Shown here: positions 1 through 17,488 of the stretch, piece after piece | Layout of the letters: every line of letters starts with the position of its first letter | How positions within the stretch are numbered: position 1 is the first letter of the stretch | IMG/VR virus record: IMGVR_UViG_3300005537_000068 | Coordinates: 1 to 22,405 of that record | Source: a virus | Reading direction: 5' to 3' (one strand) | Length of the DNA: 22,405 bases | Made by a program: the position numbers and the translations under genes | Notes under the pieces: model-generated | Told to the model about the DNA's origin: nothing | Database searches by the model: none | The model's input: the letters and a program-made list of their open reading frames with translations, nothing else

Positions 1-119
1 TTCGGCGCAACACGCGGCTTGAATGCCCAGAACCACTCTCGGACCGCGGCGGCAATTTCCGCCCCGGTGACGGTGAATGCGCTACTCGTCTCCGGAGGCG
101 TCGGAGGCGTCTTCCTCAT
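1..119 (-). CDS. Terminase large subunit, N-terminal part (runs off the left edge)
   Basis: The ATG at 119-117 opens a frame that stays open to the window edge and gives 39 residues. After a Pro/Thr-rich start, the segment AAAVREWFWAFKPR resembles the N-terminus of GpA-type terminase large subunits, the ATPase/nuclease that packages DNA into the prohead. The start overlaps the end of the small subunit gene by 38 bp in another frame, which is the usual small-then-large terminase order. Only the N-terminus is present, so the Walker and nuclease motifs cannot be checked. The call rests on position and on this short similarity. Confidence 0.7.
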   Translation of the reverse strand, partial: MRKTPPTPPETSSAFTVTGAEIAAAVREWFWAFKPRVAP

Positions 120-582
120 CCATGCCCCCGCCTATGGCCGCCTCGACCCGCGTCACGCTGAGCTCCTCGAGCGCGTCGTTAATCGCGAGCTCGATCCGTT
201 CGCGGAGCTTGTTGTCGCCCTTGGCCACCAAGGCGGCCACTTGGGAGAGCCGCGTGACAGCGAGGGCAATCACCCCGATGACCGCGCCGGTCATGTTGGG
301 CAGCGAAGCGAGCTCCTTGCGGCGCTCGGCATTGTCCATGGCCTTGGAGTCCGCCTGCTCCTTCGCGAGACGGGCCTGCTCCTGTTCCTTGTCGAGGCGT
401 TCGTCTCCATCCTCGCCGGACTTCGGCAAGTGACGAGCGACCCAAGCCTCGATGTTCTCCTGCATCGATGCGCCGTCGGCCGGCATCTCGCCTTTGGCGC
501 GGAGCTCGCCCACCCACCGGCTGGTGATTCCGAGCACTGCGGCGATTTGCGGCCGAGTGGGCTCGTTGATGTCGATTTCCAT
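82..582 (-). CDS. Terminase small subunit (Nu1-like)
   Basis: The product has 166 residues. The N-terminus (about residues 8-40: PTRPQIAAVLGITSRWVGEL) looks like the winged helix-turn-helix of lambda Nu1-type small terminases, which recognise cos DNA and recruit the large subunit. The middle (about 50-90) is a charged Glu/Lys/Arg helix that probably oligomerises, followed by a hydrophobic helix with Arg/Glu. The C-terminus is acidic (DEEDASDASGDE), a plausible contact with the large subunit. The ATG at 582 is preceded by AGGGA at suitable spacing. The large subunit gene starts inside its 3' end. Family assignment is from fold features and context, not from a search. Confidence 0.75.
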   Translation of the reverse strand: MEIDINEPTRPQIAAVLGITSRWVGELRAKGEMPADGASMQENIEAWVARHLPKSGEDGDERLDKEQEQARLAKEQADSKAMDNAERRKELASLPNMTGAVIGVIALAVTRLSQVAALVAKGDNKLRERIELAINDALEELSVTRVEAAIGGGMDEEDASDASGDE

Positions 583-928: not shown

Positions 929-1021
929 TCACGCCATCAGCGCCGCGATAGCGGAGCCCAGCCAGATGATCGCAACGGCGAAAATCAACGCCACGATCGT
1001 GATGCATTCACGTGCGGTCAT
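929..1021 (-). CDS. Small single-pass membrane protein, 30 aa
   Basis: The frame ATG (1021) to TGA (929) encodes about 30 residues. Residues 7-29 form one hydrophobic segment (ITIVALIFAVAIIWLGSAIA) after a short polar start (MTARE). Its ATG overlaps the stop of the upstream gene as ATGA, which strongly suggests translational coupling and supports it as a real gene. A tiny membrane protein near the terminase could be part of the lysis set, such as a holin-like protein or pinholin, but length alone does not show this. Function unknown. Confidence 0.6.
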   Translation of the reverse strand: MTARECITIVALIFAVAIIWLGSAIAALMA

Positions 1022-1281
1022 CGGCGCGGCTCGTAGCTGGCGCTGCTACCGCCACGGGGCGGCGCAGACATCGGCACTTCACCCCGTTCGATGTACCGCT
1101 TGCACGTCGCCCATCGCCTCGCGAGCCGGATCCATTCACGGTGCGAGACAGTGCGCCCTGATTTGTCGATGCGCTTGAGATCGGCGAGGAGCGCGAGCAT
1201 CGGCGCCGACGGATCGATCGGTCGTGGTTGGTAGCCCATCGACTGCCGGCGCGTCGGCGGCGGTCGGTCGCTAGTTACCAC
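1018..1281 (-). CDS. Conserved-looking small phage protein, 87 aa
   Basis: I do not recognise the family. The protein is basic and Pro/Arg-rich at both ends, with a central helical part (about residues 28-66, APMLALLADLKRIDKSGRTV and the WIRLARRWATCKRYIERGE region) that could bind nucleic acid or a protein. The GTG start at 1281 overlaps the 3' end of the preceding gene by 11 bp. An ATG 14 codons later is the alternative start. Its TGA overlaps the next ATG. The coupling on both sides makes it likely to be real. Confidence 0.6.
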   Translation of the reverse strand: MVTSDRPPPTRRQSMGYQPRPIDPSAPMLALLADLKRIDKSGRTVSHREWIRLARRWATCKRYIERGEVPMSAPPRGGSSASYEPRR

Positions 1282-1432
1282 GGCCTATCAGCCTATTGAG
1301 ACCGCGCAGTGCTTCATCCTTGGCGTGGTAGCTACGCTCCGGGTCGCGACCGCCTGGGATGATGTCGCGCACTTCCTGACGGATCTCGATCAGCTTGGCG
1401 ACAACGACGGCGGGAAGCTGCGCAGTGGACAT
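1271..1432 (-). CDS. Small hypothetical protein, 53 aa
   Basis: The ATG at 1432 is preceded by a good Shine-Dalgarno sequence (GGGAGG, about 6 bases upstream), which lies between the tRNA 3' end and this start. The product is a compact helical protein (AQLPAVVVAKLIEIRQEVRD followed by GRDPERSYHAKDEALRGLNR) with no membrane segment or recognisable motif. It overlaps the start of the next gene. It probably belongs to one transcript with the tRNA and the Acb2/Tad1-like gene. Function unknown. Confidence 0.65.
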   Translation of the reverse strand: MSTAQLPAVVVAKLIEIRQEVRDIIPGGRDPERSYHAKDEALRGLNRLIGRGN

Positions 1433-1448: not shown

Positions 1449-1525
1449 TGGTTGCGGGGACAGGATTCGAACCTGCGACCTTCGCGTTATGAGCGCGACG
1501 AGCTACCGAGCTGCTCTACCCCACG
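1449..1525 (-). tRNA. tRNA-Met(CAT), initiator (fMet) type, phage-encoded
   Basis: A full 77-nt cloverleaf including an encoded CCA (3' end at 1449). The anticodon CAT is at 1491-1489. Initiator hallmarks are present: a C1 x A72 mismatch at the top of the acceptor stem, the A11:U24 pair in the D stem, and an overall sequence very like bacterial tRNA-fMet. The anticodon stem is TCGCG/CGCGA, so positions 29-31 pair as G:C, C:G, G:C instead of the canonical three G:C pairs with G on the 5' side. Position 3-70 is a U-G wobble. The gene starts 10 nt after the Acb2/Tad1-like stop, and the Shine-Dalgarno sequence of the next gene follows at once, so it is probably processed from a late mRNA. Confidence 0.92.
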
Positions 1526-1535
1526 ATGAATCGGT

Positions 1536-1766
1536 TCAGGCGGTGACGTGCTTCACCGACCAGAAGACAGCTTCCTCGACCTTGGTCTTGGCCAGCGACA
1601 GTTCGCGGCTGGAACCGATTTTCTCAATCTCGGCGAGGAATGCCGCGCCAGCATCCTTGAGGGCAAGCATCTGCGCTTTCTCGGCATCACCAAGCACGCG
1701 GTATTGGTGACGAACAGCGTTGTTCGCAGTCCGATCGTCGGACGCGCTGTTGATCTGGTCGGCCAT
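1536..1766 (-). CDS. Acb2/Tad1 hairpin-domain protein, candidate anti-CBASS/anti-Thoeris sponge
   Basis: The product has 76 residues. The core, from HQYRVLGDAEKAQML through a helix to GSSRELSLAKTKVEEAVFW and ending VKHVTA, matches the pattern I know for the Acb2/Tad1 hairpin domain: two antiparallel helices with a conserved SRELSLA-K-EEA-W stretch. Known members bind cyclic nucleotides or ADP-ribose-derived signals and so block CBASS or Thoeris. Which ligand this one binds cannot be read from the sequence. A longer in-frame extension upstream is Pro/Arg-rich and crosses a terminator. I chose the ATG at 1766 because GGGAG lies 7-11 bases upstream. It heads the transcript that includes the tRNA. 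Confidence 0.75.
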   Translation of the reverse strand: MADQINSASDDRTANNAVRHQYRVLGDAEKAQMLALKDAGAAFLAEIEKIGSSRELSLAKTKVEEAVFWSVKHVTA

Positions 1767-1842: not shown

Positions 1843-1872
1843 AAAAAGCCCGCGAGCCTCTCGGCTGCGGGC
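1843..1872 (-). terminator. Rho-independent terminator, minus strand
   Basis: Read on the minus strand, the GC-rich stem GCCCGC...GCGGGC with inner pairing AGCC/GGCT (plus positions 1848-1872) is followed at once by five T (1847-1843). It would stop leftward transcripts arriving from the early and accessory region before they reach the Acb2/Tad1-tRNA-terminase block. Nothing else recognisable lies in 1767-2010 apart from the ribosome binding site of the Acb2/Tad1-like gene. Confidence 0.75.
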
Positions 1873-2010
1873 GCATCTATAACTGTTCCTTCTCTGTGCC
1901 ACTTAGCTGCGCACGGGTCAAGTCCGACCAAACGTTGCTTGACCTGCTGAGATATCCCGGCTTCACCACCCAACGCCAATCATGGCGCGTTCGAAACGGG
2001 GGTTTCATAA

Positions 2011-2673
2011 ATGTATAGGGGAGTAGGCGCCATCCTCGGCGCATCGATGCTTTGCATCTCGGCAGTCGCCAACGCTCAAATCACCACCCAGCCTGTCAGC
2101 GCATCCGCGCCTCAAGTCCTCGTCGTCCAGAAGGCCGCCGTCGGATCGTCATTGCCTAGCAATACAGAGGTATGGGTCAGCCTAGACAATGGAATGACCT
2201 CCAAGAAGACCAAAGTCGGCGACAAATTCGATGTCACAGTTTCCCGCGACGTGATGATGGGCGATTATGTCGTCATCCCGCGCGGTACGCCTGGTCATGG
2301 GCAGATCGCATACCGCACGGGCAAGGGCGCCTTCGGCAAGTCGGCGAAGATGGAATTCGACCTTGTCGATGTGAAGGTGGGTGACCGCTACATTCCGATC
2401 AGTGGTCACTATCGCATCGAGGGTAACGGCAACACCGGCGCCGCGGTTGGCGCTGTCGTTGCGGTCGGTGTTTTTGGGGCGTTCGTGACAGGCCACAGTG
2501 CGGCAGCCGCCCAAGGTAGCGAGTGGAAGGCGTACACCAAGGAGCCGATTTTGCTCGCGATCGCGGCAACACCGACGCCGGTTCTCGCGGCTGCACCGGT
2601 GGTGCAAGTCGCGCCGGCAGCGCCGGGCGGCGCACCGCTAACACCTGCGGCGGCCGCAACCCTGCACCAATAA
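2011..2673 (+). CDS. Secreted/envelope protein of unknown function, accessory (moron) gene
   Basis: The product has 220 residues. A signal peptide is clear: MYRG, a hydrophobic core, then a likely cleavage site after AVANA near residue 22. The mature part (about 45-180) is beta-rich: TEVWVSLDNGMTSKKTKVGD, then VVIPRGTPGHGQI, a GAFGKSAKMEFDL stretch, and a glycine/valine-rich hydrophobic hairpin (GAAVGAVVAVGVFGAF). The C-terminus is Ala/Pro-rich and low complexity. Similar proteins are, to my knowledge, common on sphingomonad chromosomes and unassigned. The gene runs against both neighbours, as expected for independently expressed cargo. It could alter the cell surface, but that is inference. 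Confidence 0.75.
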   Translation: MYRGVGAILGASMLCISAVANAQITTQPVSASAPQVLVVQKAAVGSSLPSNTEVWVSLDNGMTSKKTKVGDKFDVTVSRDVMMGDYVVIPRGTPGHGQIAYRTGKGAFGKSAKMEFDLVDVKVGDRYIPISGHYRIEGNGNTGAAVGAVVAVGVFGAFVTGHSAAAAQGSEWKAYTKEPILLAIAATPTPVLAAAPVVQVAPAAPGGAPLTPAAAATLHQ

Positions 2674-2695: not shown

Positions 2696-3244
2696 CTAGA
2701 GCCCGCGCCACATCGCGATCAGGCTTGCCGCGAAGGCAACTGTCGTTTTCGCTGCATCGACGGCCGAACGGCTGTTGCTGGCAAGCTTCGATCCGGCGAC
2801 GCCAGCTTCCTCATCAAACCGGCACACGTTCTCGTAGACGTCCCAATAGGGGCGCGGGACCCGCTCCTTGAGCCGCGAAAGCTCTACAAGCGCTTCATGT
2901 TGTGACCAGCCGAGCGGAGCGTCCACGCGATCAGCGGTGAGATCGACGGCACTGAGGCCTCCATCGGCTCGGTGCCACAGGTTGCGGCAGTAGCGGATGG
3001 CCTGCTGCTGGGGCTCCTGGAACAAGCCGGCGCGGTCTCCTGCGATCCAGCGATCCACCGCCGTGCCGCCGCGATTGAGCATGACCTTCACCATCGTCAT
3101 GCGCTTGCCGCCGATCGATCCATCGAGGTCGACAACGGTGGACTGCTCGTAGTGGCCGTGCGCAGCGGCAAAATCGTTCACCAGCGGCTCTTTGGCCACC
3201 GGCGGCACCTTGCTGATGCGACTACGTCTGCGAGACTTGGCCAT
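2696..3244 (-). CDS. Hypothetical protein at the early/late boundary, possible late regulator
   Basis: The product has 182 residues from the ATG at 3244 (MAKSRRRSRISK). The frame stays open further upstream, but that part lies opposite the BrnT gene and is a shadow. The N-terminus is strongly basic. The region around residues 50-125 (MTMVKVMLNRGGTAVDRWIA and the AIRYCRNLW and WDVYENVCRFDEEAG regions) recalls helical phage regulators of the DUF6456/antitermination kind, but I cannot confirm this. It sits between the early operon and the late genes, where phages often encode a late activator or antiterminator. It is convergent with the secreted-protein gene, with 22 bp between them. Confidence 0.6.
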   Translation of the reverse strand: MAKSRRRSRISKVPPVAKEPLVNDFAAAHGHYEQSTVVDLDGSIGGKRMTMVKVMLNRGGTAVDRWIAGDRAGLFQEPQQQAIRYCRNLWHRADGGLSAVDLTADRVDAPLGWSQHEALVELSRLKERVPRPYWDVYENVCRFDEEAGVAGSKLASNSRSAVDAAKTTVAFAASLIAMWRGL

Positions 3245-3367: not shown

Positions 3368-3637
3368 ATGGAAATCGAATTCGACAGCGCCAAGGACGAG
3401 GCCAACACCGCGAAGCATGGCGTCTCGCTCGCATTCGGTGCCCGCGTTTTCGATGACACCATGCACATCGTTCTGACGTCCATCCGCCCGGTAGACGGCG
3501 AGGATCGGTTCAAGGCGATTGGCATGGTGGAGGGCCGCCTTTGGACCGCCATCCACGTGTTGCGCGGCTCTCGTGTCCGGTTCATCTCGGTAAGGAAAAG
3601 CAATGACGGCGAAGAGCGCATCTACCATCGGCCTTAG
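3368..3637 (+). CDS. brnT: BrnT family toxin
   Basis: The product has 89 residues and matches the BrnT pattern: IEFDSAKDEANTAKHGVSL near the start (the F-x-D-x-x-K-x-x-x-N-x-x-KHG motif), VFDDTMHIV, R...IGMVEGRLWTAIHVL, and the C-terminal VRFISVRKS...E..IYHRP with the conserved Arg and Lys-Ser. BrnT is a RelE-like ribonuclease of type II toxin-antitoxin systems that blocks translation when free. All the motifs I recall are present, so it is probably active. The antitoxin gene overlaps its 3' end by 35 bp. As a phage-borne module it may stabilise the element or act against other phages. Confidence 0.92.
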   Translation: MEIEFDSAKDEANTAKHGVSLAFGARVFDDTMHIVLTSIRPVDGEDRFKAIGMVEGRLWTAIHVLRGSRVRFISVRKSNDGEERIYHRP

Positions 3638-3860
3638 CGCCGACCCGCACGACCCCGACGACTTCGATGTCAGCGAGGCTGAGATCGAACGCGCGCTAGC
3701 CGTGCGTCGTAAGCGGGGCCGCCCATCCGGCTCGCATAAGGAGCAGGTGACGCTGCGCGTTGACAGCGAGGTGCTCGATTACTTCAAGCACGCGGGGCCA
3801 GGCTGGCAGACTAGGATGAACGCGGTGCTGCGCAAGGCGATGGAAGAGACCGCGCGTTAG
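3603..3860 (+). CDS. brnA: BrnA family antitoxin
   Basis: The product has 85 residues. The acidic N-terminal half (DPHDPDDFDVSEAEIERAL) probably wraps the toxin. The C-terminal half (GRPSGSHKEQVTLRVDSEVL, then YFKHAGPGWQTRMNAVLRKAM) is the ribbon-helix-helix domain typical of BrnA, with the GPGWQTRMN signature. It neutralises BrnT and is expected to bind the palindrome at 3350-3359. The ATG at 3603 lies inside brnT. Its TAG overlaps the TAA of the convergent gene as TTAG, so there is no room for a bidirectional terminator here. Confidence 0.92.
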   Translation: MTAKSASTIGLSADPHDPDDFDVSEAEIERALAVRRKRGRPSGSHKEQVTLRVDSEVLDYFKHAGPGWQTRMNAVLRKAMEETAR

Positions 3861-4435: not shown

Positions 4436-5129
4436 TCCGATTTCCGTTTTCGCGAGGATCGTAAATTCCAGCCCAGCCGCGCTCAGCGGCATGTTGCAGG
4501 ATCCGGCCGGGCGGCCACTCCTCGTCGGCTAGCCGCGCGATGTCGCTCAGCAGCCGGGCGTGGGCCGTCGCGGTGTTCGGAAGCTTCTTGCGCTTCCGGT
4601 TGGCGAGGAAGTCTGCCCAGTGCTGGGGATCTGCGAAATCGGGCCGAGGGAACGGGTCGGCATGCGGGGTTTGGGCTCGCTGTACCGAAGAAGCTTTAGC
4701 TTCTGAGGTATTCTTTACTTCTTTCCCTTCTTTCTTCTTTGCGTCGCCGCCGCGTCGTTGCTGCGTCGCGTCTGCGTCGTCACCTGCGTCGGGCGATCCA
4801 CCGGGCGTCTGGTAAACCTCGTAATTTCTAATGGTTATGACCGTCTGGCCTGCGTCGGTTGATGCGTCGATTATTTGCGACTTCACTAACGACGAAAGAA
4901 ACCGACGCACCTTCGCTTCGTCCCATTTCCAGGCCTTCGCCATGAACCGGAGCGAGTGCGAAAGCTGGCCGCGTTCGAGCATGATTTCGCCCGTGCCGGC
5001 ATGGATTTTGGTCGGGCGGAACGCGGCTTCCTCGATCAGCCAGACAAAGGCGTCGCGGCGCGAAAACTCTTCGTTCCGGAACACGGCATTGTCCTGCCAG
5101 CCGCGATGCATCAGGTAGAAGCCACTCAC
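4320..5129 (-). CDS. Phage replication initiator (O-like, winged helix)
   Basis: The product has 269 residues. Residues 1-105 match the N-terminal winged-helix domain common in phage replication proteins: FYLMHRGWQDNAVF, RRDAFVWLIEEAAF, GEIMLERGQLSHSLRFMA, WKWDEAKVRRFLSSL, and TVITIRNYEVYQ. A low-complexity linker follows (about 108-150, Asp/Ala/Gln then Lys/Glu-rich), then a C-terminal helical domain (about 165-230) that would contact a helicase or loader. The linker DNA carries the repeat array and AT-rich tract described separately, as in the lambda O gene. The GTG start overlaps the ThiF-like stop as GTGA. Confidence 0.75.
   Translation of the reverse strand: MSGFYLMHRGWQDNAVFRNEEFSRRDAFVWLIEEAAFRPTKIHAGTGEIMLERGQLSHSLRFMAKAWKWDEAKVRRFLSSLVKSQIIDASTDAGQTVITIRNYEVYQTPGGSPDAGDDADATQQRRGGDAKKKEGKEVKNTSEAKASSVQRAQTPHADPFPRPDFADPQHWADFLANRKRKKLPNTATAHARLLSDIARLADEEWPPGRILQHAAERGWAGIYDPRENGNRNGQRPHHEPQQGEFGNPMAAAAARSLARSDRGRELPLD
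4689..4869. other. Candidate replication origin: direct repeats plus AT/pyrimidine tract inside the initiator gene
   Basis: GCGTCG occurs at 4741, 4752, 4763, 4774 and 4786, a spacing of 11, 11, 11 and 12 bp (about one helical turn). Two more copies lie at 4852 and 4864. The repeats abut 4711-4740, 30 nt with a single purine on the plus strand and 70% A+T, in a GC-rich region. Next to that is a 16-bp inverted repeat (4689-4704, GAAGCT-TT-AGCTTC core). On the coding strand the order is repeats, then purine-rich tract, as in lambda ori within gene O. The function is inferred from layout. Confidence 0.6.
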
Positions 5130-5905
5130 GCTGGTACCCCGGTCAACAGATTAGGTGAGATCGGTTTGGGCAGCGCGATCGGAATGACCTGCCCGCTCTT
5201 CAGATTGACGAATCCGCCGGCGTTACCAATCGAGCCGCGCCCCAGCAGGTCGAACAGCAGCGCAAGCGCATGGCTCGCGACAACGCGGTTCACGAACAGC
5301 GATTGACGCTCTAGCGCCTCGGCCACCGAGCACGATGGGGTATCGTCCTCAGCCACCGTCGCATCGGCTAGTTCGGGGAAATGCTCGAGCACGGTCGGGA
5401 GCCGGTCGCACTTCGTGCCAGCCGCTGCGCTAGGGCAACCGATCACGAACTGCCCGTCAGTCGCACGGTTGCCTAGGTCGAGCCAGTAATGCGGCGATGG
5501 TCGGCCCTCGGGCATTTGATCACCCAGCGCGCGTCGGGCCGCCGCGGTGTCGACGCAGGTGATGAGGATGTCGATGCCATCGAGCCCGATCGCGGCTGGT
5601 GCACGGCCATGCACCGCCCGCCAGTTCAAGCCATGCGCGAGGTTGATACGCTCGGTCAGCGTGTGCGCCTTCGAGTTGCCGAGGTCGCAGCGATAGAAGG
5701 GCTGGCGGCCCAGGTTCGCCTCGGTAACGATATCGTCGTCCACCACGGTGACGTGGAGCGACCGCGACGAGATCGCGCGTAGCGCGGTATCGAGCGACGC
5801 AAGGCCCATCAGCATCTGCGCGCCATTGCCGCCGCAGCCGACGAGCATGACGTCCAGTGTGCGGTTCTCCAGCGTCGCAGGGAGATAGTGGCGGTTAGGC
5901 TGCAT
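5126..5905 (-). CDS. PRTRC system ThiF family protein (E1-like)
   Basis: The product has 259 residues. The E1/ThiF nucleotide-binding loop is at 21-28 (LVGCGGNG), followed by VVDDD (54-58), EANLGRQPF (62-70, the conserved Arg and Gln), the SKA element (78-80) and CVD (117-119). The segment TPSCSVAEALERQSLFVN (189-206) carries a candidate catalytic Cys192. E1-like enzymes adenylate the C-terminus of a ubiquitin-like protein. Here the likely substrate is the small protein C of the same cassette. The usual zinc CxxC pairs are not evident. The start overlaps the protein A gene by 11 bp. Confidence 0.9.
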   Translation of the reverse strand: MQPNRHYLPATLENRTLDVMLVGCGGNGAQMLMGLASLDTALRAISSRSLHVTVVDDDIVTEANLGRQPFYRCDLGNSKAHTLTERINLAHGLNWRAVHGRAPAAIGLDGIDILITCVDTAAARRALGDQMPEGRPSPHYWLDLGNRATDGQFVIGCPSAAAGTKCDRLPTVLEHFPELADATVAEDDTPSCSVAEALERQSLFVNRVVASHALALLFDLLGRGSIGNAGGFVNLKSGQVIPIALPKPISPNLLTGVPA

Positions 5906-6557
5906 TGGATTCTCCGGCGAACGGGCTGCGCGGCATCGGGAGGAACATGCCTGCCGCGCAGATGCGCGAGGCCATTACCGGGCCCTCCGAATCGTCGAGC
6001 CGACCGATCACGAGCGCGATCTTTGTGGCGTGAGCGTCGTCGGCGTCGTCGGTGGCGCTGAAGAAGGCCGAGCCGCGCCCGTGGCTGTGTATGTCGCAGA
6101 TCAGGTGCCAGCCGTGCGGGAGGGCCGGCATGCGATAGACCAGCCGAGACGGGGTGGCGGCATCGATGGCGGGGAATTCTACCCCGAACTCGCCGGTCTC
6201 TTCGCACCAGATAATGAACGCGGCTGCCTCGTTAGGGAGCGCGGCCCGGAAGTGATCTAGTATCCGCTCCAGGTGCTCACGTGGGATCAAGCCGCAGCGC
6301 AGGTCGGCCTTGGGCGCGCCCGCGCTTCCGTAGGGCAGGTATGCGACGATCGGCGAGCTGACGGGGACGTCAAGCGCGAGCCACGGCCGCCGCAGGACGA
6401 GCATCACCACGTCCTGGCCTATCGCGAGGCCGTGGCCGGCGCGAGCGGCGCGGAGCGCGTCGATTGCGGGCGACATGCCGCTGGGCGGGACTGGGTAGCA
6501 GGGCATCGTCGCGAGCACCGCAGCAGCAGTCGGATCGGCAGCAAGCACGGCGGTCAT
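5895..6557 (-). CDS. PRTRC system protein A (JAB/JAMM metallopeptidase)
   Basis: The product has 220 residues. The JAMM zinc motif is complete: H157-S-H159, seven residues, S167, two residues, D170 (read as HSHG...FSATD). A candidate catalytic Glu lies in WCEETGE near residue 119 or 120. JAB-domain enzymes cleave after the C-terminal glycine of ubiquitin-like proteins, either maturing or removing them. The neighbouring ThiF-like protein and protein C fit as partners. The start is fixed by an ATGA overlap with the protein B stop. The metal-binding residues are intact, so an active enzyme is expected. Confidence 0.9.
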   Translation of the reverse strand: MTAVLAADPTAAAVLATMPCYPVPPSGMSPAIDALRAARAGHGLAIGQDVVMLVLRRPWLALDVPVSSPIVAYLPYGSAGAPKADLRCGLIPREHLERILDHFRAALPNEAAAFIIWCEETGEFGVEFPAIDAATPSRLVYRMPALPHGWHLICDIHSHGRGSAFFSATDDADDAHATKIALVIGRLDDSEGPVMASRICAAGMFLPMPRSPFAGESNAA

Positions 6558-7363
6558 CGCGCAGCCCTCCCGACGAGCTTACCGAGCGTGATCGGCTCGA
6601 CCGCGTTCCGGCGCACGTTGGGATCGAACGGCTTGAGGCGCTTTACCGGAAACCGCTTCGCGCCCTTCGCCGCGAGCTCGTCCCACAGCCGCACGAGGCC
6701 GCCCTTACCGCTGACGGTCAATTCCTGGCCCGGATTCGGATGCGTCGACCAGCTATCGAACACCGCGCGCTCGTATGCGGGAATGGACGCGACCGTCAGC
6801 GCCTTCGGCTGGGCGATGTTGCCCCAGCAGAGCGCGCCGTCGATGAAGACGTTCAAGACGGGCGAGTGCAGCAGAGGCGTCGCTGCGGTCGGTCGTTGGT
6901 TTTCCCGGAGCGCATAGACGCCGAGCCCGCGCCGCGTCGCAATGAACAGGTGGGCGGGATAGGGAAGAGGCAGCGTCGTTCGCTCGGTCAGCACCTTGAG
7001 GCCAGCTGGGGGCCGCGACAGCGCGAAATAGGAGGGACGTACCTTCTCCGGCACCCACCATGCGAGCATGTCGGGATGCGACACCAGCACATTGCCGGGC
7101 AGGATTTCCGGGGCGACGTTGCGCCCCAGCGCCTCGTTCCATTGGCGCAGGTGCGCGCGCGTCAACGGCACGCCGGCGGCAATCGTCGGCTGGCCGTCGT
7201 TGTGCTCGACCTTGTGCATGCTGGCGAACGCCGCACCGGCCGCCTGCTGCGGGCTGTAGGCGCCGCCTTTCTCAGGCTGATAGAGCAGGATGGCATTGGT
7301 CAGCACAAGGCCGCCGGCCGTAGGTTCGAACTGGGTGGAATGATTGGCCATGGGAGTGCTCAC
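6554..7363 (-). CDS. PRTRC system protein B (possible E2-like)
   Basis: The product has 269 residues from the GTG that overlaps the protein F stop as GTGA. An ATG four codons in is the alternative start. The pattern fits PRTRC protein B: AILLYQPEKGG near 25-34, the LVSHPDMLAWWVPEKVRPSYF region, LPYPAHLFIA, LGVYAL, and NVFIDGALCWGN with Cys179, which I find to be the only cysteine in the protein. I recall a proposal that this family is E2-like. A single cysteine in that strand would suit a conjugating role, but this has not been shown, to my knowledge. Confidence 0.85.
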   Translation of the reverse strand: MSTPMANHSTQFEPTAGGLVLTNAILLYQPEKGGAYSPQQAAGAAFASMHKVEHNDGQPTIAAGVPLTRAHLRQWNEALGRNVAPEILPGNVLVSHPDMLAWWVPEKVRPSYFALSRPPAGLKVLTERTTLPLPYPAHLFIATRRGLGVYALRENQRPTAATPLLHSPVLNVFIDGALCWGNIAQPKALTVASIPAYERAVFDSWSTHPNPGQELTVSGKGGLVRLWDELAAKGAKRFPVKRLKPFDPNVRRNAVEPITLGKLVGRAAR

Positions 7364-8487
7364 GGTTTGACAGGATCGGTATCGATCAGGTCCTGGGCGG
7401 CGAGCAGGAGTTCGACGCCAAGCTTTAGGGAAGTGAACCAGCGCTCGACCTTGTCCGCGTCAGACAACAGACATAGTCCCACGATGTCCATGAAGCGGGT
7501 TTCCATGCCGTGACGCCCGACTTCATCGAGCTCCCGCGCGAAATGATCGAACGGAACCAGCGTCAGCGGTGGCAGCGTCGAACAATCCTCGTAATCGGAC
7601 ACGTATGCGCCGATTTCTTCGAAATCGAAGTGCCATGCGTTGCCGTCAGGCTTGAGGCTGGTAATGGCCTTATGCGCTGCGCGCAGCCTGCAAATCCGAT
7701 CGCGGAGGCCTGCTGGGAGGGCCTTTAGGGGCCCGGCGTTGGTTGCGATCATCCAAGCCGGCCGCCGCGCATTTATAGCTGACGGCAGCATCTCTTCATC
7801 GATCTCGTTGGGGTCAGTGCCGTGCCACTCAAGCATGGCCTTCACCGCAGCCGCGTCGTCGGTTTCACCTTCCCAATAATATGCTGCGATATGCTCGAAG
7901 AGATCATCGTACCCGAATATTGGAAGCACGGACTTCAGCGTCTCCCCAAGGGCTTTGTACGCGGTCGCCCGCCATTTGACCGGCGGGACCGCACCGACCA
8001 GCGTTTGCGAAAGCACATTGCTCTTCTCGATCCAGCCGAGTTCCAGAGACCCGATGCTGTCGCAGATCAACGCGAGCGCCGGCGGGAGGATATCATCGCC
8101 GACCAGCGGCACGACGCGGAGGTCGGCGAGCTGGAGCGGCGCCAGGATTTCCAGCACCGCCGCATCGAACACCCGCTCGATCTGTCGGCGAGCCTCCGTG
8201 CGCGTTTTCCGTCGCACGGACGTTTCGCGCATTGCCACCCAGCGGCCGATCACCTTGTGGTGTGGCGCGAGCGGCGCGTCGAAGACGACGGGCACGTCCG
8301 GCGACAGCCGGACGGCCCGCCCGGCCAGATCAACCGAGCGGCGCGAGGCGGAGACCACGGGGCGGCTGAAGCGGCTCGTGCCTGCCGCTGCCGCGCTCGT
8401 CGGGCGTGGCGACAATGCGCGCATGGAGGGCTTGAGCCTGCGCGGTGCACGCGGGCTGGGTTGAGCGGGGAGCGTCGCTATCATCAT
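7360..8487 (-). CDS. PRTRC system protein F
   Basis: The product has 375 residues if the ATG at 8487 is right. The body from about residue 60 on (VVFDAPLAPHHKVIGRWVAM, the REQIERVFDAAVLEILAP-like region, WEGETDDAAAVKAMLEWHG, and the PSAINARRPAWM segment) fits protein F of PRTRC cassettes by position and pattern. No biochemical role is known to me. The first 50 or so residues are Pro/Arg/Ser-rich and poorly convincing. A second frame (from the ATG at 8512, MTLLEWIEHDDDSDAP) covers the same DNA, so the true N-terminus is uncertain. It lies between proteins C and B. Confidence 0.75.
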   Translation of the reverse strand: MMIATLPAQPSPRAPRRLKPSMRALSPRPTSAAAAGTSRFSRPVVSASRRSVDLAGRAVRLSPDVPVVFDAPLAPHHKVIGRWVAMRETSVRRKTRTEARRQIERVFDAAVLEILAPLQLADLRVVPLVGDDILPPALALICDSIGSLELGWIEKSNVLSQTLVGAVPPVKWRATAYKALGETLKSVLPIFGYDDLFEHIAAYYWEGETDDAAAVKAMLEWHGTDPNEIDEEMLPSAINARRPAWMIATNAGPLKALPAGLRDRICRLRAAHKAITSLKPDGNAWHFDFEEIGAYVSDYEDCSTLPPLTLVPFDHFARELDEVGRHGMETRFMDIVGLCLLSDADKVERWFTSLKLGVELLLAAQDLIDTDPVKP

Positions 8488-8559
8488 CGTGCTCGATCCA
8501 TTCGAGGAGAGTCATGCGGTGGGCGGCCGGTATCGCCGTGGTGGTGCCGCGCGCCACGG

Positions 8560-8766
8560 TCAGCCCTTGGTGCCGACCGCGCGTCGGTACTCGGTGACGT
8601 GGACATCCCCGGAGACGCCGGCGTCGACCATCTCGGCGTTGAGGATCGCGGGGTATAGCGTCGCATGATAGGCGCGCAGGCCCTGCGGATCGTCGGCAAG
8701 GTGTGGCGGGGCCGGAAGGTCGATGCCGTCGTAGCGATAGACGCGCGTCAGATGATTGATTTGCAT
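8560..8766 (-). CDS. PRTRC system protein C (ubiquitin-like)
   Basis: The product has 68 residues. It begins MQINHLTRVYRYDGIDLPAP, has the Leu/Tyr pattern of a small beta-grasp fold, and ends RRAVGTKG, the C-terminus I associate with this family. I recall that protein C has been proposed as a ubiquitin-like member, with the conserved Gly tail as the site activated by the ThiF-like enzyme and cut by the JAB protein. The tail ends in a single Gly, not Gly-Gly. It contains no cysteine. It follows protein E by 42 bp. Confidence 0.85.
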   Translation of the reverse strand: MQINHLTRVYRYDGIDLPAPPHLADDPQGLRAYHATLYPAILNAEMVDAGVSGDVHVTEYRRAVGTKG

Positions 8767-8808
8767 TGGGGCCTCTCGGCTAAGGGTGGTGGGGGCAGGT
8801 GGCGCGCC

Positions 8809-9216
8809 TCACCAAAGGCTGGCGGGCTCGCCGGCCTTGGCGGCCGTTGACGAGGCGGGTGTCGGCGGCGCGGCTGTCGCCTTGGGGGCATCGGCCGCGG
8901 GCTTTTTCTTGGAAGCCGTCTCGGTCTTCGCCGCCTCGGCCGCCTCGCGCTGTTCCGCGATCTGGTCACCGAGCGACTTGCGCGCGATGATGAGCTGACC
9001 GAGCGCACCGTCCTCGCCCTTCGCAAGCTCGGCATCGATCTCGGCCGCACTCGCGGTGATCGAGATCGGTCGCATCTCGCCGCCTTCGGGGGTGTGCTTT
9101 GCCCCGGCGGCCTTGCGCGGGATGATGGTCAGCGTGACCGTTTCGTCGGGCGCGGCGACCAGATCGAAGCCGAGCGAATAGCGTGAGAGCAGCGGGAGCA
9201 GGCTGGTGATCAACAT
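8809..9216 (-). CDS. PRTRC system protein E
   Basis: The product has 135 residues from the ATG at 9216 (MLITSLLPLLSRYSLGFDLV). The N-terminal half (about 1-85) holds DETVTLTIIPRK, the PISITASAAEIDAEL segment and a helix to EQREAAEA, consistent with protein E of the cassette. The C-terminal 45 residues are low complexity (Ala/Pro/Lys/Thr). A longer open frame upstream runs inside the ParB gene and is a shadow. It starts 5 bp after the ParB stop, so the two are surely co-translated. Molecular function unknown. Confidence 0.8.
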   Translation of the reverse strand: MLITSLLPLLSRYSLGFDLVAAPDETVTLTIIPRKAAGAKHTPEGGEMRPISITASAAEIDAELAKGEDGALGQLIIARKSLGDQIAEQREAAEAAKTETASKKKPAADAPKATAAPPTPASSTAAKAGEPASLW

Positions 9217-9221
9217 CGGAA

Positions 9222-10520
9222 TCAGTCCTTGTCCGAGGTGGCGGGGGACGACGCGGCTTCGGCAGGCGGCCCGTACTTCCCATCGATGGTCATCGCGCTC
9301 GGCAGGCGGCCGGCCCAACTGAACCCGGTCGCGTTCAGCATCCCCGCGACGATCTTGTCGTTCGGAGCAGCGAGCAGCTTGGCGAACGCCTTCTCGCCCA
9401 TGTGCTTGACCAGGCCGCATTCGTGGGCGATGAATTTGAGCTCGTCCTTGCCGAAGCGCGACAGGAAGGTTCGATCGACCTGCCAGGTATCGCGCAGCAC
9501 CGCCTCAAACGCGCGCGCGATCTCGGGATCGCCCTCCGCCGCCTGAATAAGCGCGCCGCGCCACGCCGCCTCGCGGAGATCGGTGACATGCTTGGCGACC
9601 GACGCAGTGGTGACGCTCGGCTTTGACGCCGCGGGCGCGCCGCGCGCGGGCTTGGCCTCCGGCTTCGATGGCGCAGCAGCTGCCGAAGGCGCGGGCGTGG
9701 TCGCCTTGGCGGGCGCCGGCTCATCGGCGCCTGCTGGCGGCGAGGATTTCTCCATTGCCTCGGTCTTCAGCTGGAAGCAGCCCGGGTTGGTGCAGTGCCC
9801 GTCATCGACATGGGTCTCGAAAAGCGCGCGCTGCGAACCCGAGTTGAACGGGCACGTCGTGCATTCCGTCTTATCGAACACAGCAGCCGCGAGGCTCTGC
9901 GTCACACGCATGAGAAGCTCGCGCGTTTTAGCGACGTCCAGGCCAGCGCTCAGAATTGTCTCGAGGGCCTTGTCCTGCTTGTCGGCAGGAACGACCGCGA
10001 GCAGCTCAGCGTGACCGACCTTGACGCGTCGCTCGTTGAGCGCGGTCTTTACCGTCTCCGAGAGATCTGCGAGCGCGAGCCTGCGGTCCAGCTTGGAGGC
10101 CGACCAGCCGAGGCGACGGGCGGCCTCCGCGCGATCGCTCTGGCATGCGGCGAGGACGCGGAGCGCGGCGTCTGCCTGCTCGGTTTCCGAAGCATCTTCG
10201 CGAATATCGTTCTCGTCGATCGCGGCTTCCAGCGCTTCCTGGTCGGTCATCTCGCGGATGACGACCGGCACTTCACCTTCGGGACCGAACACTTCCAGCG
10301 CAGCTTTGTACCGACGCTCCCCGGCGACGATAACGAACTGGGCGTCGTCATCGCCTGAAGGGCGGAGCAACAGCGGCTGCAGCAGCCCGCGCAGACGGAT
10401 CGAGGTCGCAAGCTCGCCATGCTTTAGCTGGTCGAAATACCGACGCGGATTGTCCCCTGGCCGGATCTTTGAGAGTGGCAGCATGGCTGGCGCTGCGGAG
10501 CCGGATATGTGACCGTGCAT
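9222..10520 (-). CDS. PRTRC system ParB family protein
   Basis: The product has 432 residues from the ATG at 10520. The ParB/Srx nucleotide-binding domain is at about 12-110: NPRR (24-27), GLLQPLLLRP, the GERR box (67-70) and ENDIRED (103-109). A helix-turn-helix follows at about 130-153 (AEAARRLGWSASKLDRRL). Next is a cysteine cluster C220, C223, C243, C248, probably a zinc site. A low-complexity Pro/Ala linker and a C-terminal domain (about 320-432) complete it. ParB proteins bind centromere-like DNA and hydrolyse CTP. No ParA-like gene is in the window. The start overlaps the previous stop as TGATG. Confidence 0.92.
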   Translation of the reverse strand: MHGHISGSAAPAMLPLSKIRPGDNPRRYFDQLKHGELATSIRLRGLLQPLLLRPSGDDDAQFVIVAGERRYKAALEVFGPEGEVPVVIREMTDQEALEAAIDENDIREDASETEQADAALRVLAACQSDRAEAARRLGWSASKLDRRLALADLSETVKTALNERRVKVGHAELLAVVPADKQDKALETILSAGLDVAKTRELLMRVTQSLAAAVFDKTECTTCPFNSGSQRALFETHVDDGHCTNPGCFQLKTEAMEKSSPPAGADEPAPAKATTPAPSAAAAPSKPEAKPARGAPAASKPSVTTASVAKHVTDLREAAWRGALIQAAEGDPEIARAFEAVLRDTWQVDRTFLSRFGKDELKFIAHECGLVKHMGEKAFAKLLAAPNDKIVAGMLNATGFSWAGRLPSAMTIDGKYGPPAEAASSPATSDKD

Positions 10521-10723
10521 CAGGAAGCCCTTCGGTTGATCAGCGCGTCGCGCTGGTAGGTTTCGTGGATTCGGGTGGGCCAGCCCTTGGCCGTCCGGCA
10601 GCTGCGCTCGGCGCGACCGGCCCGACGAGCCTCGAGGGCTTCTTCCTGCTTCTTGGCGAGCTGGATCACCCGATAGTGATGGGCGCGGCGCTCTAGCCAG
10701 CGCTGGCTGAAGGCGCCGATCAT
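10520..10723 (-). CDS. Small basic protein, 67 aa
   Basis: Not recognised. It is a charged helical protein (FSQRWLERRAHHYRVIQLAK, then KQEEALEARRAGRAERSC) with net positive charge, so it may bind nucleic acid. Both ends are coupled: its ATG overlaps the upstream stop as ATGA, and its TGA overlaps the ParB ATG as TGATG. It directly precedes ParB and may be expressed in step with it. Confidence 0.65.
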   Translation of the reverse strand: MIGAFSQRWLERRAHHYRVIQLAKKQEEALEARRAGRAERSCRTAKGWPTRIHETYQRDALINRRAS

Positions 10724-11511
10724 GCTGGCACCGCACGTTTTGTGGCCGCGGCAAAAGCCTCGAAGGCCTCGCGATCGCCGTTACAGCAGGTCCACTTGAT
10801 TTTGCGCTTCCGGCTGACTGCTTTGCCGCGCTCCCACTGGGTCTCAGTGTCCATCCGGAGAGCTGCCGCCCCGATGGCCTGGCCGGGAAACGAGAACGAC
10901 ACGATCGCCTGCTCGACGATCAGCTGCCCCAGCCGATTGCGCGTCACATAGACGTGCGGCCGAAGATACTCTTTGTGCTCAATGACGGATCCAGGGAGGC
11001 GCCGGAGAATGACACGTTCGAAGCGGGCGATAGCCCGGTCCCCGAAGCGCTTTCTCGCGGCCTGCTCCTTGTCGTGCGCGTTCTTGCAGCTCTGGCGGCA
11101 GAATACCGTCCCGTGCTGCGAGCCGATCACATGATCAGGCTTCCAGCGCGCATAACGCAGGTTAGCGCCGTTGAGGGGTTCGTCTGCGCCGACCTCATTT
11201 TCCCAAGCGAGCGGCAGGTCATGATCGATCCGACGGCCGCAGCCGGTGCACTCGAAGTGCCACCCGGCATATATCATTGCCGATACGGGGATGATGCCGT
11301 CCGCCGCGAACTGGTCCGCCCACGGCGCTCGACGACACTCCACACCGTGGAAATCTCCGTCGCCAAATTGGCAAGCGCCCTCTCGGCGAGCGACGACATT
11401 GTGCCGAGCGAAGACGATGCCGCCGGTACCCTCGCAGGTCTCGGTCACGGCATACGCGCGCAACGGCTTGCTCGCCTTATCCGAGGCGAGAACGGTACCG
11501 GCGGCGCTCAT
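10720..11511 (-). CDS. Zinc-ribbon-like phage protein, 263 aa, unknown function
   Basis: From the ATG at 11511. The N-terminal part (about 18-62: RAYAVTETCEGTGGIVFARH, then C47 and C59) and the central FECTGCGRR (86-94) with VFCRQSCKNAHDKEQAARKR about 55 residues later look like a zinc-binding site of the Cys2-Cys2 type. A basic region and a beta-rich C-terminal part follow (HVYVTRNRLGQLIVEQAIV). Proteins of this kind occur in alphaproteobacterial phages without an assigned role. DNA binding or nuclease activity is possible, but no catalytic motif is clear. Coupled to both neighbours (TGATG upstream, ATGA downstream). Confidence 0.7.
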   Translation of the reverse strand: MSAAGTVLASDKASKPLRAYAVTETCEGTGGIVFARHNVVARREGACQFGDGDFHGVECRRAPWADQFAADGIIPVSAMIYAGWHFECTGCGRRIDHDLPLAWENEVGADEPLNGANLRYARWKPDHVIGSQHGTVFCRQSCKNAHDKEQAARKRFGDRAIARFERVILRRLPGSVIEHKEYLRPHVYVTRNRLGQLIVEQAIVSFSFPGQAIGAAALRMDTETQWERGKAVSRKRKIKWTCCNGDREAFEAFAAATKRAVPA

Positions 11512-13097
11512 CAGTCCCACCGATCGATGCGGTAGTTGACCGTGCCGAGCTTCGTTCGAACCCGAATCCGGTGACCTAGGCCACCATCCGGCACGAGGAG
11601 CCCGCAAGCGCTTGCCTCATCGGCACCCTCAATCGAGCGGCTGGCGTTGAATTGCTCAATCGTCCGCCGAACGCCGTGAAGCTCGGACCGGAGGATCTCC
11701 GGGAAAAGGCACAGGTTGCGGCTATCCTGATCAGCGGCGCCGTCCAGGATGAAGATCGCGCTGGCTGAGTGGCGGAGATAGGCCTTGTCGCCCCACATGC
11801 TCGGGTTGAGCGCGACTGCCGTCACGTCGACCCAAGCGCCGATAGGAAGCCCCCATCGGATCGCGCTGGAGCCACCGTGATAGAGATACCATGAGACGGG
11901 ATTCCGCTGGTCGTCGCGGTCCCACTGCAGAATAGGCGCGGCCTCAGAATCTGCTGCGGTTACCAACGCGGCAAGGTTCATCTGGCCGTCGGTACGGACG
12001 CTGATCGCCGCCGCCATGGGGAGCACGGTGCGCGCAAACTTCTCCCACGTGATCGCGATCGTTGCGCCGCCCATATCGCCGGCGTCCTTTGCCGGTACGC
12101 CCGAGCGAAGATGGCCAAACACGCCGCTCTCGGCTGGCGCATTCGGGGCGGACGGTGCCGGTCGCCAGATAGTCTCGATTTCATCTAGCCGAGCGAAACG
12201 GCGACGGAGTGCGCTGCCGATGCCTAGTTTTGCAACGATCGCCTCAGCCTGCTCGATGTTGCCCGATGAAGCCGGCGCCTGCGGGCGCTGGTAGCGAAGC
12301 GGGTGCATCTTCGCGGCGAACCGGCTCTTGATCTCCTCGAAGGAGAGGCCGCCCGAGATGTCCTCGAGAAGCGTACCGATCATGCTCGATCGCGGTGTGC
12401 AGAAGCCGGCAGGCGCCGTCGCCACAGCGCGCCAAACGACGTTCCTGCGACGCTCTTTGCCCTGTGCGTTTGCGACAGCCGTCTGGACGTCGTGAAGGAA
12501 CTGGGCCGGCCCAAGAACCTTCTCGGTCCGGTAGAGTGCGTCCGCCTGAAGAAGCGTCAGCGCCTGGCCGACCTGCTCCGGCGTGAATTCGGCGAGCCCA
12601 CGGCTGAGCGTCCCGAAATGCTCTCGCTTCAGGGCCATCGCTTGACCAGCGGTCTCGACACGCGAGTGATGGATGTGCGGGGACTGCAGGGAGAAGTGCG
12701 TCCATTCGCCCGTCCGCGGGGTGCCCCAGGTCGCATCCGAATTGAGGAAGACGCCGGTGACTTTCCCCGCCGCGACGGCTCGGCGCATCGCGGCGACACC
12801 CGGCGCGAAGAAGGGATCGATGCCGTCGACGGGCCACAACGCCGGGATGAGCTCGCCGTCGGCAGCTATCACGGCCAAGCTACCAAAGCGGCGGAGGAAA
12901 TGCCGGCAGGCCGAGCAGTTATGGTGCAGCCGGTCGGCTTCGTCGGTGAAATGATCCAGATAGATGGCGTTCAGGTCGCCAGCATCGACTACGAAGAGCG
13001 GGCCATGCGCCTTAACCTGAGCTTGGAAGTGGTCTCGGATGGTCGAGGCGAACGCGTCGAACGATGCCTCCGTCGAGAGGATGGTAGCGGTGCTCAC
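11511..13097 (-). CDS. Large phage protein of unknown function, 528 aa
   Basis: From the GTG at 13097, overlapped as GTGA with the stop of the upstream gene. Near the N-terminus, HFTDEADRLHHNCSACRHFL (49-68) contains a His/Cys cluster (C61, C64 with flanking His) that could bind metal. The rest mixes helical segments with a repeated WG-x-P or WK-like aromatic pattern and shows no Walker, polymerase or nuclease motif I can name. Proteins with the HNCSACRHF segment are, as I recall, frequent in phages and unassigned. Its place among replication genes suggests a role in DNA metabolism or host takeover, which is inference. Confidence 0.75.
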   Translation of the reverse strand: MSTATILSTEASFDAFASTIRDHFQAQVKAHGPLFVVDAGDLNAIYLDHFTDEADRLHHNCSACRHFLRRFGSLAVIAADGELIPALWPVDGIDPFFAPGVAAMRRAVAAGKVTGVFLNSDATWGTPRTGEWTHFSLQSPHIHHSRVETAGQAMALKREHFGTLSRGLAEFTPEQVGQALTLLQADALYRTEKVLGPAQFLHDVQTAVANAQGKERRRNVVWRAVATAPAGFCTPRSSMIGTLLEDISGGLSFEEIKSRFAAKMHPLRYQRPQAPASSGNIEQAEAIVAKLGIGSALRRRFARLDEIETIWRPAPSAPNAPAESGVFGHLRSGVPAKDAGDMGGATIAITWEKFARTVLPMAAAISVRTDGQMNLAALVTAADSEAAPILQWDRDDQRNPVSWYLYHGGSSAIRWGLPIGAWVDVTAVALNPSMWGDKAYLRHSASAIFILDGAADQDSRNLCLFPEILRSELHGVRRTIEQFNASRSIEGADEASACGLLVPDGGLGHRIRVRTKLGTVNYRIDRWD

Positions 13098-14222: not shown

Positions 14223-15425
14223 TCAGACGCGAACTGGCATGATGACGCCGCCCCAAGCGGGGTCGGCTGGGTTGCGAACGAGCGACGCCATCATCCCCTC
14301 GTCGGTTGGTGCGATGAGCAGCTCGTCACCGCCGGCTGCATCGACGAGCGCCAGCAGATAGGCGCCCTGGTAACCAAGGCGCGCGCCCGTCCAGCCCCGC
14401 ATGTTGTGGGTGCATTCGATGCGCACCGATGTTCCGATGCCGGTGTCGAGGAATTGCGCGCTCAGCACCGCCCCCTCGGCGTCCGGCACGATCTTCACCG
14501 CGCGAATATGCTTGCTGCCGAACGACAGCGCCCGGACGGCGCGACGCAGTTCAGCCGACTTGAACAGCATCGAGAAGCGCGGAGTGGTAGGGACGACCCT
14601 GGTGTAGTCGGGAAAGGTGCCGTCGATCAGCTTGGTCGCGAGCGTGACGCGCGCCGGGCCGGACGCCAGCGTGAAGTCAGCGCGGGTGGCGCGCGGGTCT
14701 GTCGGTGCCGTCGTGGTTGGCGCCGCATTGCTCAACGCCTGCGTACCGATGCGAACCGCGATGCCGCGATCGTCACGCCCGGGCCGTGTTCCGACAATAT
14801 CGAACAGCACCGTCAGCGCTAGGCGGGGAATGATCGCGCCCTTCAAGGCGCCGGCAGCGTCGGGCAGCTGGAGGTCCAGCCAGTGCAGGCGATGGCCATC
14901 CGTCGCCACCGCGCGATAGGTGTGCCCGTCCAGATGGTGGAAATAGATCCCGTTCAGATAGTAGCGGGTCTCTTCCGTCGATATCGCCGCGCTGACGCGG
15001 CGCAGTGACTGGATCTGTTCGTGGCTGAACGTCGCAGCGAAGGTTTCGGTCGTGATCCCGTGATCCGTCGGGAAATCGTCGACATGCTGTTGGCTCTTGA
15101 TGCCGATGCATAATGCATCGCTGCGCAGTTGCATCTGCTCGCCCGATGCATCGATGCTCATGTCGGCGCCGCCTGCTGCACCAACCGCGCCAATCACCGA
15201 TCGGAAATCGGGCAGCATGAACGCGGCATCAACCTCGCCCGAGCGTTCCACCTTGGCCGTCACCGTGAGGTCCAAGTTGGTGCCGGTAGCCTCAAACGAG
15301 CCATTGGCGCGGCAACGGACCATTTCGAGGATGGGAATGGTGGAGCGCCGCTCGACGGCCTTCCCGGCGAGCATGACGGCGTGGCGGAAGTCGCGCGTCG
15401 AAAGCGCGATAGCAGGCTCAGACAT
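14223..15425 (-). CDS. dnaN: DNA polymerase III beta subunit (sliding clamp), phage-encoded
   Basis: The product has 400 residues, against about 370 for the host type. Hallmarks in order: ERRSTIPILEMV (25-36), GTNLDLTV (48-55), TRYYLNGIYF (153-162), ATDGHRL (174-180), DGTFPDYTRVVP (268-279) and the C-terminus ending IMPVRV (compare MPMRL of DnaN). A Thr/Pro-rich insertion near 230-250 explains the extra length. The clamp tethers polymerase to DNA and binds mismatch and lesion-repair proteins. No phage polymerase is in the window, so it probably works with the host polymerase III or other clamp-binding proteins. Overlaps the preceding gene by 8 bp. Confidence 0.92.
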   Translation of the reverse strand: MSEPAIALSTRDFRHAVMLAGKAVERRSTIPILEMVRCRANGSFEATGTNLDLTVTAKVERSGEVDAAFMLPDFRSVIGAVGAAGGADMSIDASGEQMQLRSDALCIGIKSQQHVDDFPTDHGITTETFAATFSHEQIQSLRRVSAAISTEETRYYLNGIYFHHLDGHTYRAVATDGHRLHWLDLQLPDAAGALKGAIIPRLALTVLFDIVGTRPGRDDRGIAVRIGTQALSNAAPTTTAPTDPRATRADFTLASGPARVTLATKLIDGTFPDYTRVVPTTPRFSMLFKSAELRRAVRALSFGSKHIRAVKIVPDAEGAVLSAQFLDTGIGTSVRIECTHNMRGWTGARLGYQGAYLLALVDAAGGDELLIAPTDEGMMASLVRNPADPAWGGVIMPVRV

Positions 15426-17354: not shown

Positions 17355-17488
17355 GCCAACATCTCCCAGACATTCGCGGCCATAGGCTCGCTGAAACGGA
17401 CGGCCAAAACCGCGCACAGACCCCAGAAGGCGGCGCCGGCGCTGATCGCGATCGACGCGACAAGGAGCGGGCTGGGCGACGTCGTCAT
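17351..17488 (-). CDS. Small membrane protein, 45 aa
   Basis: The frame ATG (17488) to TGA (17351) gives 45 residues with one hydrophobic segment (LLVASIAISAGAAFWGLCAV, about residues 8-27, continuing LAVRF) and a short C-terminal tail (SEPMAANVWEMLA). Both ends overlap neighbours as ATGA, strong support for a real gene. It could be an early-expressed membrane protein, for example one altering the host envelope. Function unknown. Confidence 0.65.
   Translation of the reverse strand: MTTSPSPLLVASIAISAGAAFWGLCAVLAVRFSEPMAANVWEMLA

Follow-up and report, generated by a model that had tools for sequence, protein, structure and literature searches.

Does the small gene that lies beside a tRNA gene and ahead of the packaging genes of this virus encode a sponge for nucleotide alarm signals, and if so, for which signals? 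The gene comes from IMG/VR virus record IMGVR_UViG_3300005537_000068, all 22,405 bases of which were analysed (hereafter the window) and for which megablast of the whole stretch against phages gave no match. The earlier note on this DNA had assigned the gene to the Acb2/Tad1 proteins, whose family, fold and mode of action are already known (reviews PMC12043709, PMC10419184). Our best explanation, to which we give a probability of about 0.75, is that it encodes an Acb2-type nucleotide sponge, the first gene of a packaging operon, which would bind cyclic di- or trinucleotide alarm signals.

Reading 1536-1766 on the minus strand gives an open reading frame of 76 amino acids and a stop codon, with GGGAG seen by eye upstream of the ATG; the plus strand of the interval yields no such protein on translation, and the earlier note had named no strand. 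The pattern quoted there, SRELSLA...EEAVFW...HVTA, is present in the protein as written, and the gene, its motif and its tRNA neighbour are all confirmed. A profile search had been proposed as the check on family membership, and the protein matches Pfam PF24729 (Acb2_Tad1_hairpin) over residues 22-75 of 76 with 59.4 bits (cut-off 27, E 3.8e-16); Acb2 of phage T4 matches the same model (7.1e-20). This match, together with the homologues described below, rules out a chance open reading frame. When the single sequence was searched against the PDB, Acb2 homolog 43 appeared at E 0.16 and an unrelated Binary toxin A-like protein scored better (8.1e-5), no single stretch passing alone. A profile of 51 subfamily rows, searched against all PDB sequences, placed only Acb2 or Tad1 chains at ranks 1-9 (E 0.0021-0.0066), the first other chain following at E 0.02. 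In PHROGs the protein matches a family recorded as of unknown function, and searches with it of PADLOC and NCBIfam gave no match.

Table 1. Features of the window, with strand and the basis of each assignment.
Feature	Position (strand)	Basis or remark
acb2-like gene, 76 aa	1536..1766 (-)	N-terminal arm at 10-19; hairpin helices at 27-50 and 54-75; by prediction a sponge for cyclic oligonucleotides
tRNA-Met(CAT), initiator-like, CCA encoded	1449..1525 (-)	ARAGORN; Rfam RF00005, 59.9 bits
GC-rich stem-loop of leader + TTTTT (1843-1847), terminator-like	1848..1872 (-)	fold energy; counterpart in L003
leader motif CTTGACCCGTGCGCAGCTAAGTGGCA	1897..1922 (-)	conserved upstream of hairpin; presumed late promoter/control site
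small ORF, 53 aa, cargo slot	1271..1432 (-)	no family match
small ORF, 87 aa, cargo slot	1018..1281 (-)	no family match
terminase small subunit (TerS)	82..582 (-)	phrog_57, 5.3e-12; packaging block led into by acb2
orf182	2696..3244 (-)	directly upstream of leader in relatives; no family match; possible late regulator
orf220, divergent, between orf182 and leader	2011..2673 (+)	missing from L003
BrnT/BrnA toxin-antitoxin pair	3368-3860 (+)	6.6e-21 and 4.5e-20; adjoins replication genes
PRTRC cassette	5126-10754 (-)	ThiF (E1-like), PRTRC_A with JAB domain, PRTRC_B (E2-like), PRTRC_C (Prok_Ub), weak PRTRC_F, PRTRC ParB
conserved phage proteins, function unassigned in PHROGs	11511-13097 and 17485-17952 (-)	phrog_1735, 9.5e-107; phrog_16695, 3.3e-48
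sliding-clamp-like protein	14223-15425 (-)	DNA_pol3_beta_2, 8e-13; dnan model below its cut-off

The AlphaFold model (48 rows; pLDDT 85, pTM 0.64) consists of a short N-terminal helix followed by a two-helix hairpin, with a pLDDT of 98 over residues 31-70 and of only about 58 in the N-terminal helix or arm, and we compared this helix layout with the feature described in PMC10419184. Using Foldseek, rows 1-10 from the PDB were all Acb2/Tad1 (probability 0.63-0.97), among them 8h2x_E (probability 0.96, rmsd 1.2) and 7uq2_A (0.97), and rows 1-12 from the viral predicted models of BFVD were all Acb2/Tad1 hairpins (0.99-1.00); neither database returned an E-value below 0.001. VIA-align placed T4 Acb2 first (Z 6.8) and Acb2 of phage PaP2 third and fourth (6.4), with unrelated helical chains at similar Z, for example a nuclear-pore chain at 6.6. 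Since helical hairpins match many folds, and unrelated chains reach similar scores, the fold alone is not decisive and it is the fold together with the sequence that decides. The earlier note had staked its identification on a two-helix hairpin and on the residues of the ligand pocket: the hairpin and most of the pocket positions are present. The 76-residue model is all-helical, with no beta strand, and the N-terminal domain of Tad1 is missing.

We then aligned the pocket residues with those of the studied sponges. Hhalign matches the protein to T4 Acb2 with E 9.4e-8 (probability 94), and in the profile alignment Y22 falls on Y8, K37 on K23, T61 on T68, R54 on D61 and T75 on F82; in PaP2 Acb2 the positions aligned with Y22, K37, R54 and T61 are 11, 26, 67 and 74 in chain numbering. 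We take Y11 and K26 of PaP2 Acb2 to contact dinucleotides and R67 to contact trinucleotides. For T4 Acb2 it has been reported that with Y8A Panoptes is no longer activated and the binding of dinucleotides is disrupted (PMC12657218, PMC12657230), that F82 stacks on the dinucleotide (PMC12657218) and that T68M lowers binding (PMC12657230). Among the 127 rows that were not recruited via the N-terminal seed, Y22 is kept in 122, K37 in 125, R54 in 124 and A59 in 126; T61 and residues 64-70 fall within the search seed, and conservation counts there are biased. The position of T4 F82 is occupied by Thr (T75) in 124 of the 127. Judged by alignment, then, the dinucleotide tyrosine and lysine and a candidate trinucleotide arginine are kept and the T4 phenylalanine is lost. 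PaP2 Acb2 has Ala at this aligned end, which indicates that the stacking aromatic is a T4 feature and not defining for all Acb2. The N-terminal arm of the subfamily is itself near-invariant (R-T-x-N-N-x-x-R-H-x-Y-R), with R12 in 115, N15 in 117, N16 in 111, R19 in 121 and H20 in 116 of the same 127 rows, and nothing in the aligned portions of T4 and PaP2 Acb2 corresponds to these five residues.

T4 Acb2 (Vs.4, NP_049728.1, PDB 7uq2) shares the Pfam family, the helical hairpin and the equivalents of Y8, K23 and T68, whereas Thr75 stands here for its Phe82 and Arg54 for its Asp61, the conserved N-terminal arm is 14 residues longer and the inter-helix loop is much shorter. With PaP2 Acb2 (p26, PDB 8h2j, 8ixz) the protein has the equivalents of Y11, K26, R67 and T74 in common and superimposes at a Foldseek rmsd of 1.2-1.3, but identity in structure alignments is about 17-22%, the PaP2 loop is 24 residues longer and the N-terminal arm is not common to both. 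Acb2 homolog 43 (PDB 9ptq) also has 76 residues and an alignable hairpin part, but the alignment is limited to the helix-2 region and leaves the N-terminal arm unmatched. Tad1 (PDB 7uav, 8smd, 8kbe-8kbh) shares the motif of the second hairpin helix, SRExxxAxTxxEEAxMW, and differs by its N-terminal beta domain: an antiparallel sheet of four strands precedes two long helices, and loops of the sheet form the gcADPR pocket (PMC12043709).

How widely is the gene spread, and in what company? At least 202 homologous loci were fetched, and the subfamily HMM re-finds all 202; they comprise 59 and 58 viral loci (the 58 from a second search covering the best 80 of 403 relatives), 80 genome loci, 3 named phages and 2 genomes of a class-wide sample. 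Titles of the 80 genome loci are mostly alphaproteobacterial, and in the class-wide sample the subfamily occurs in 3 of 385 genomes, one being the centre genome itself. Full-length homologues in named phages are those of Dunaliella viridis virus SI2 (72%), Sinorhizobium phage Aussie (61%) and ctCJ8213 (46%), all annotated as hypothetical, of which the first two match PF24729. Their neighbourhoods differ from that of the window, the SI2 gene sitting ahead of a holin and the Aussie gene among head genes, between head-to-tail adaptor and stopper, and no tRNA was found beside any of the three. Neighbouring proteins were clustered over 207 loci (besides the relatives, these include the window, a repeat of L093 called L300 and, from the tRNA scan, L197 and L263) using a simple ORF caller whose output also includes wrong-strand ORFs. 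Among the matches listed, the most frequent cluster occurs at no more than 9 of the 207 loci, which rules out a constant partner gene and suggests that the acb2-like gene is a stand-alone cargo gene. Some members of the subfamily (L033, L034, L038-L041, L044-L046, L051-L054, L056) carry inter-helix insertions of 9-27 residues, some with W69 changed to R, and are possibly specificity variants. Our literature search, conducted without most subscription papers or the original Acb2 reports, found no paper on the subfamily and no member of the alphaproteobacterial branch that had been assayed; nor did a literature search find a paper on Acb2 homolog 43.

We compared host genomes for the SMODS domain of CBASS synthases, drawing on the genomes that were available. 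Of the 80 genome loci, 43 made up the carrier set, largely named isolates, and those left out were for the most part MAGs and repeats; sponge carriers, except the family centres, were kept in the controls. At 40 bits or more, SMODS is found in 10 of 43 carriers against 29 of 446 genomes of the three carrier families (Fisher p 9e-4), against 2 of 51 genomes of the class with a GpA-type terminase (Fisher p 0.006), and against 2 of 29 such genomes of at least 3.5 Mb (p 0.06). The 40-bit cut was adopted afterwards, once group searches had proved to miss weak hits (genome G001 scored in one SMODS search and not in another); at the curated cut-off the figures are 13 of 43 carriers and 45 of 446 controls (three family centres removed). 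The enrichment fits an anti-CBASS role weakly, since unmatched genome size, a bias towards isolates and the post hoc threshold all confound it.

The gene had been described as following directly on a terminator, as the promoter-proximal gene of a late block, and the surroundings agree with this: a terminator-like hairpin precedes it, TerS lies beyond it on the same strand, and in relatives TerS and the large subunit, TerL, come after the same leader. The hairpin has a fold energy of -21 kcal/mol (z -2.85, 1 of 200 shuffles equally good); a consensus scan did not list it and gave no promoter-like site in 900-2200. It has a counterpart in L003 and, with shifted pairing, in L362-L364. Among the leader-bearing contigs, the T-run behind it is clear in the window only, and thus a terminator is likely, not proven.

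The closest relatives, L002-L004 (91%), have orf182 upstream as in the window (74%) and share with it, between orf182 and acb2, a leader of CTTGAC...TGCGCAGCTAAGTGRCA followed by the GC hairpin. Scanning for exact copies of the leader motif recovered L002-L004 and L362; near-copies are present in the orf182 relatives L363 and L364, and none was seen in a further one, L365. Behind the leader, L362 and L363 have TerS and TerL and no evident cargo, L364 has a 108-residue secreted-looking protein, L003 has Acb2, HNH, TerS, TerL and portal, and the window has Acb2, the tRNA, two small ORFs and TerS, so that the slot has no obvious cargo in 2 contigs, a secreted protein in 1 and Acb2 in one group of 3 contigs. 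This gene order suggests a packaging operon that can be switched on and that has a slot with exchangeable contents. In L364, two copies of a GC hairpin (GAGCCGCGCCC...), around 4584 and 5102, flank the cargo gene, as if it were bracketed by duplicated terminators. The divergent orf220 is probably a later insertion. Antitermination of the Q type at the leader is only an analogy; family searches with orf182 gave no match and its predicted model is poor (pLDDT 47), and a Q-like antiterminator therefore stays a guess from position. Elsewhere in the window, the PRTRC cassette combines ubiquitin-like parts with a partition protein, in a virus record that is perhaps a phage-plasmid.

The neighbouring tRNA-Met starts 10 nt past the acb2 stop codon; the adjacency claimed by the earlier note is real but rare, and the short gap suggests that the two may be co-transcribed. 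The anti-host function which that note ascribed to the tRNA stays conjectural. This tRNA has C1xA72 and A11:U24, which we take to be marks of an initiator-like tRNA, and an anticodon-stem strand of G29-C30-G31, in which C30:G40 breaks the usual G30:C40; C30 occurs in 2 of 120 viral initiator-like tRNAs among the matches listed. Its exact anticodon stem recurs in contigs L064 and L065, next to ORFs read by inspection as large terminase and with no acb2. Of the 202 listed relatives, which have 28 tRNA genes, 1 has a tRNA on the same strand no more than 100 nt downstream (198 of the 202 have at least 200 nt of downstream sequence), which rules out the tRNA as a family-wide partner, and the pairing is thus not a family feature. 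This one is the Microvirga lupini prophage L093, in which the order is HNH, Acb2 (61%), 8 nt, a CAT tRNA with C1xA72, small ORFs and terminase large subunit; because its tRNA has C11:G24 and a different stem, the pair was probably assembled separately there. A first pattern scan of viral contigs for acb2 with an initiator tRNA gave 31 loci, in which the HMM found no sponge gene, a second scan, broader at the tRNA, gave 0 loci, and a scan for initiator tRNAs (120 loci among the matches listed) gave 2 with a sponge relative, L197 and L263, in each of which it lies far from the tRNA. Several unrelated phages (the window, L064, L065 and L093) have initiator-like tRNAs close to terminase genes or immediately ahead of them. 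Genes for tRNA-Met and tRNA-fMet are also reported from phiLM21-like prophages of Sinorhizobium (PMC12429752), and such tRNAs are therefore not rare in alphaproteobacterial prophages.

Two other readings concern the ligand. It is possible, if unlikely, that the hairpin serves a signal other than those of CBASS, the arm building a different pocket for another nucleotide: each of the arm residues is kept in 111-121 of the 127 rows recruited independently of the arm, Phe82 of T4 has become Thr, and Tad1, of the same Pfam family, shows that a hairpin can serve gcADPR (PMC12043709). However, the Y22, K37, R54 and T61 positions are kept (the T61 count being seed-biased), and the arm may merely pack between protomers. 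The earlier note had named the signalling molecules of CBASS and Thoeris as what known members sequester; its assignment to the hairpin family is supported, the Thoeris part weakly if at all. A Tad1-like sponge that sequesters gcADPR could be argued from the shared Pfam hairpin family and from the Tad1 chains among the Foldseek and profile matches, but these align over 41-42 residues only and the protein lacks the beta-sheet domain from whose loops the gcADPR pocket is built (PMC12043709); we give this reading hardly any weight and consider a sponge for the cyclic oligonucleotides of CBASS the likelier.

Other readings concern what the gene does in the operon. That it is a domesticated hairpin protein with a housekeeping role in the phage, for example in packaging or regulation, and no sponge activity, is in keeping with its frequent position among structural genes, as between adaptor and stopper in Aussie, and with an arm unlike that of studied Acb2. 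We consider this very improbable, since the gene has no constant neighbour, its pocket positions are conserved, and it is missing behind the same leader in L362-L364, whereas a structural component that was essential could not be dispensed with. The acb2-tRNA pair could instead form a two-gene anti-defence cassette, a sponge with a replacement initiator tRNA against tRNA-cutting toxins, an evasion by phage tRNAs that has been proposed (PMC10264068); the gaps of 10 nt in the window and 8 nt in L093, the same order ahead of terminase genes, and the fact that the sole close downstream tRNA among the 202 listed relatives is again CAT with C1xA72 would agree with it. Yet that is a single relative of 202, initiator tRNAs with the same stem occur beside terminase-like ORFs in L064 and L065, where acb2 is missing, such that a shared insertion slot explains the pairing, and C30:G40 may impair initiation; the cassette is in our view distinctly doubtful. 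A broader proposal, which we regard as a long shot, is that the subfamily is a distinct class of sponge in which the arm closes over a pocket for a signal unbound by T4 or PaP2 Acb2, loaded with an initiator-type tRNA in a leader-controlled slot ahead of terminase and countering both signal-driven suicide and loss of initiator tRNA.

Under the preferred reading of an Acb2-type sponge for cyclic oligonucleotides, transcription through the leader hairpin, once the phage has infected or the prophage has been induced, would turn on the packaging operon, with acb2 as its first gene. The small helical protein would then assemble into a hexamer, as Acb2 does, and bind cyclic di- and/or trinucleotides from CBASS-type enzymes without cutting them, such that the signal would be sequestered and the death effector would stay off before virions are packaged. 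The tRNA would be a separate cargo of the same slot, which probably supplies or spares initiator tRNA in late translation. Panoptes senses sponges (PMC12657218), and carrying the acb2-like gene may therefore have a cost.

Acb2 homologues are under wide study, as PDB 9ptq shows, and with this locus Acb2 sponges now reach into an uncharacterised branch, carried chiefly by alphaproteobacterial prophages and phages, whose near-invariant arm makes a clear prediction about the choice of ligand. Moreover, reading the slot between leader and terminase in other phages offers a route to further counter-defence genes.
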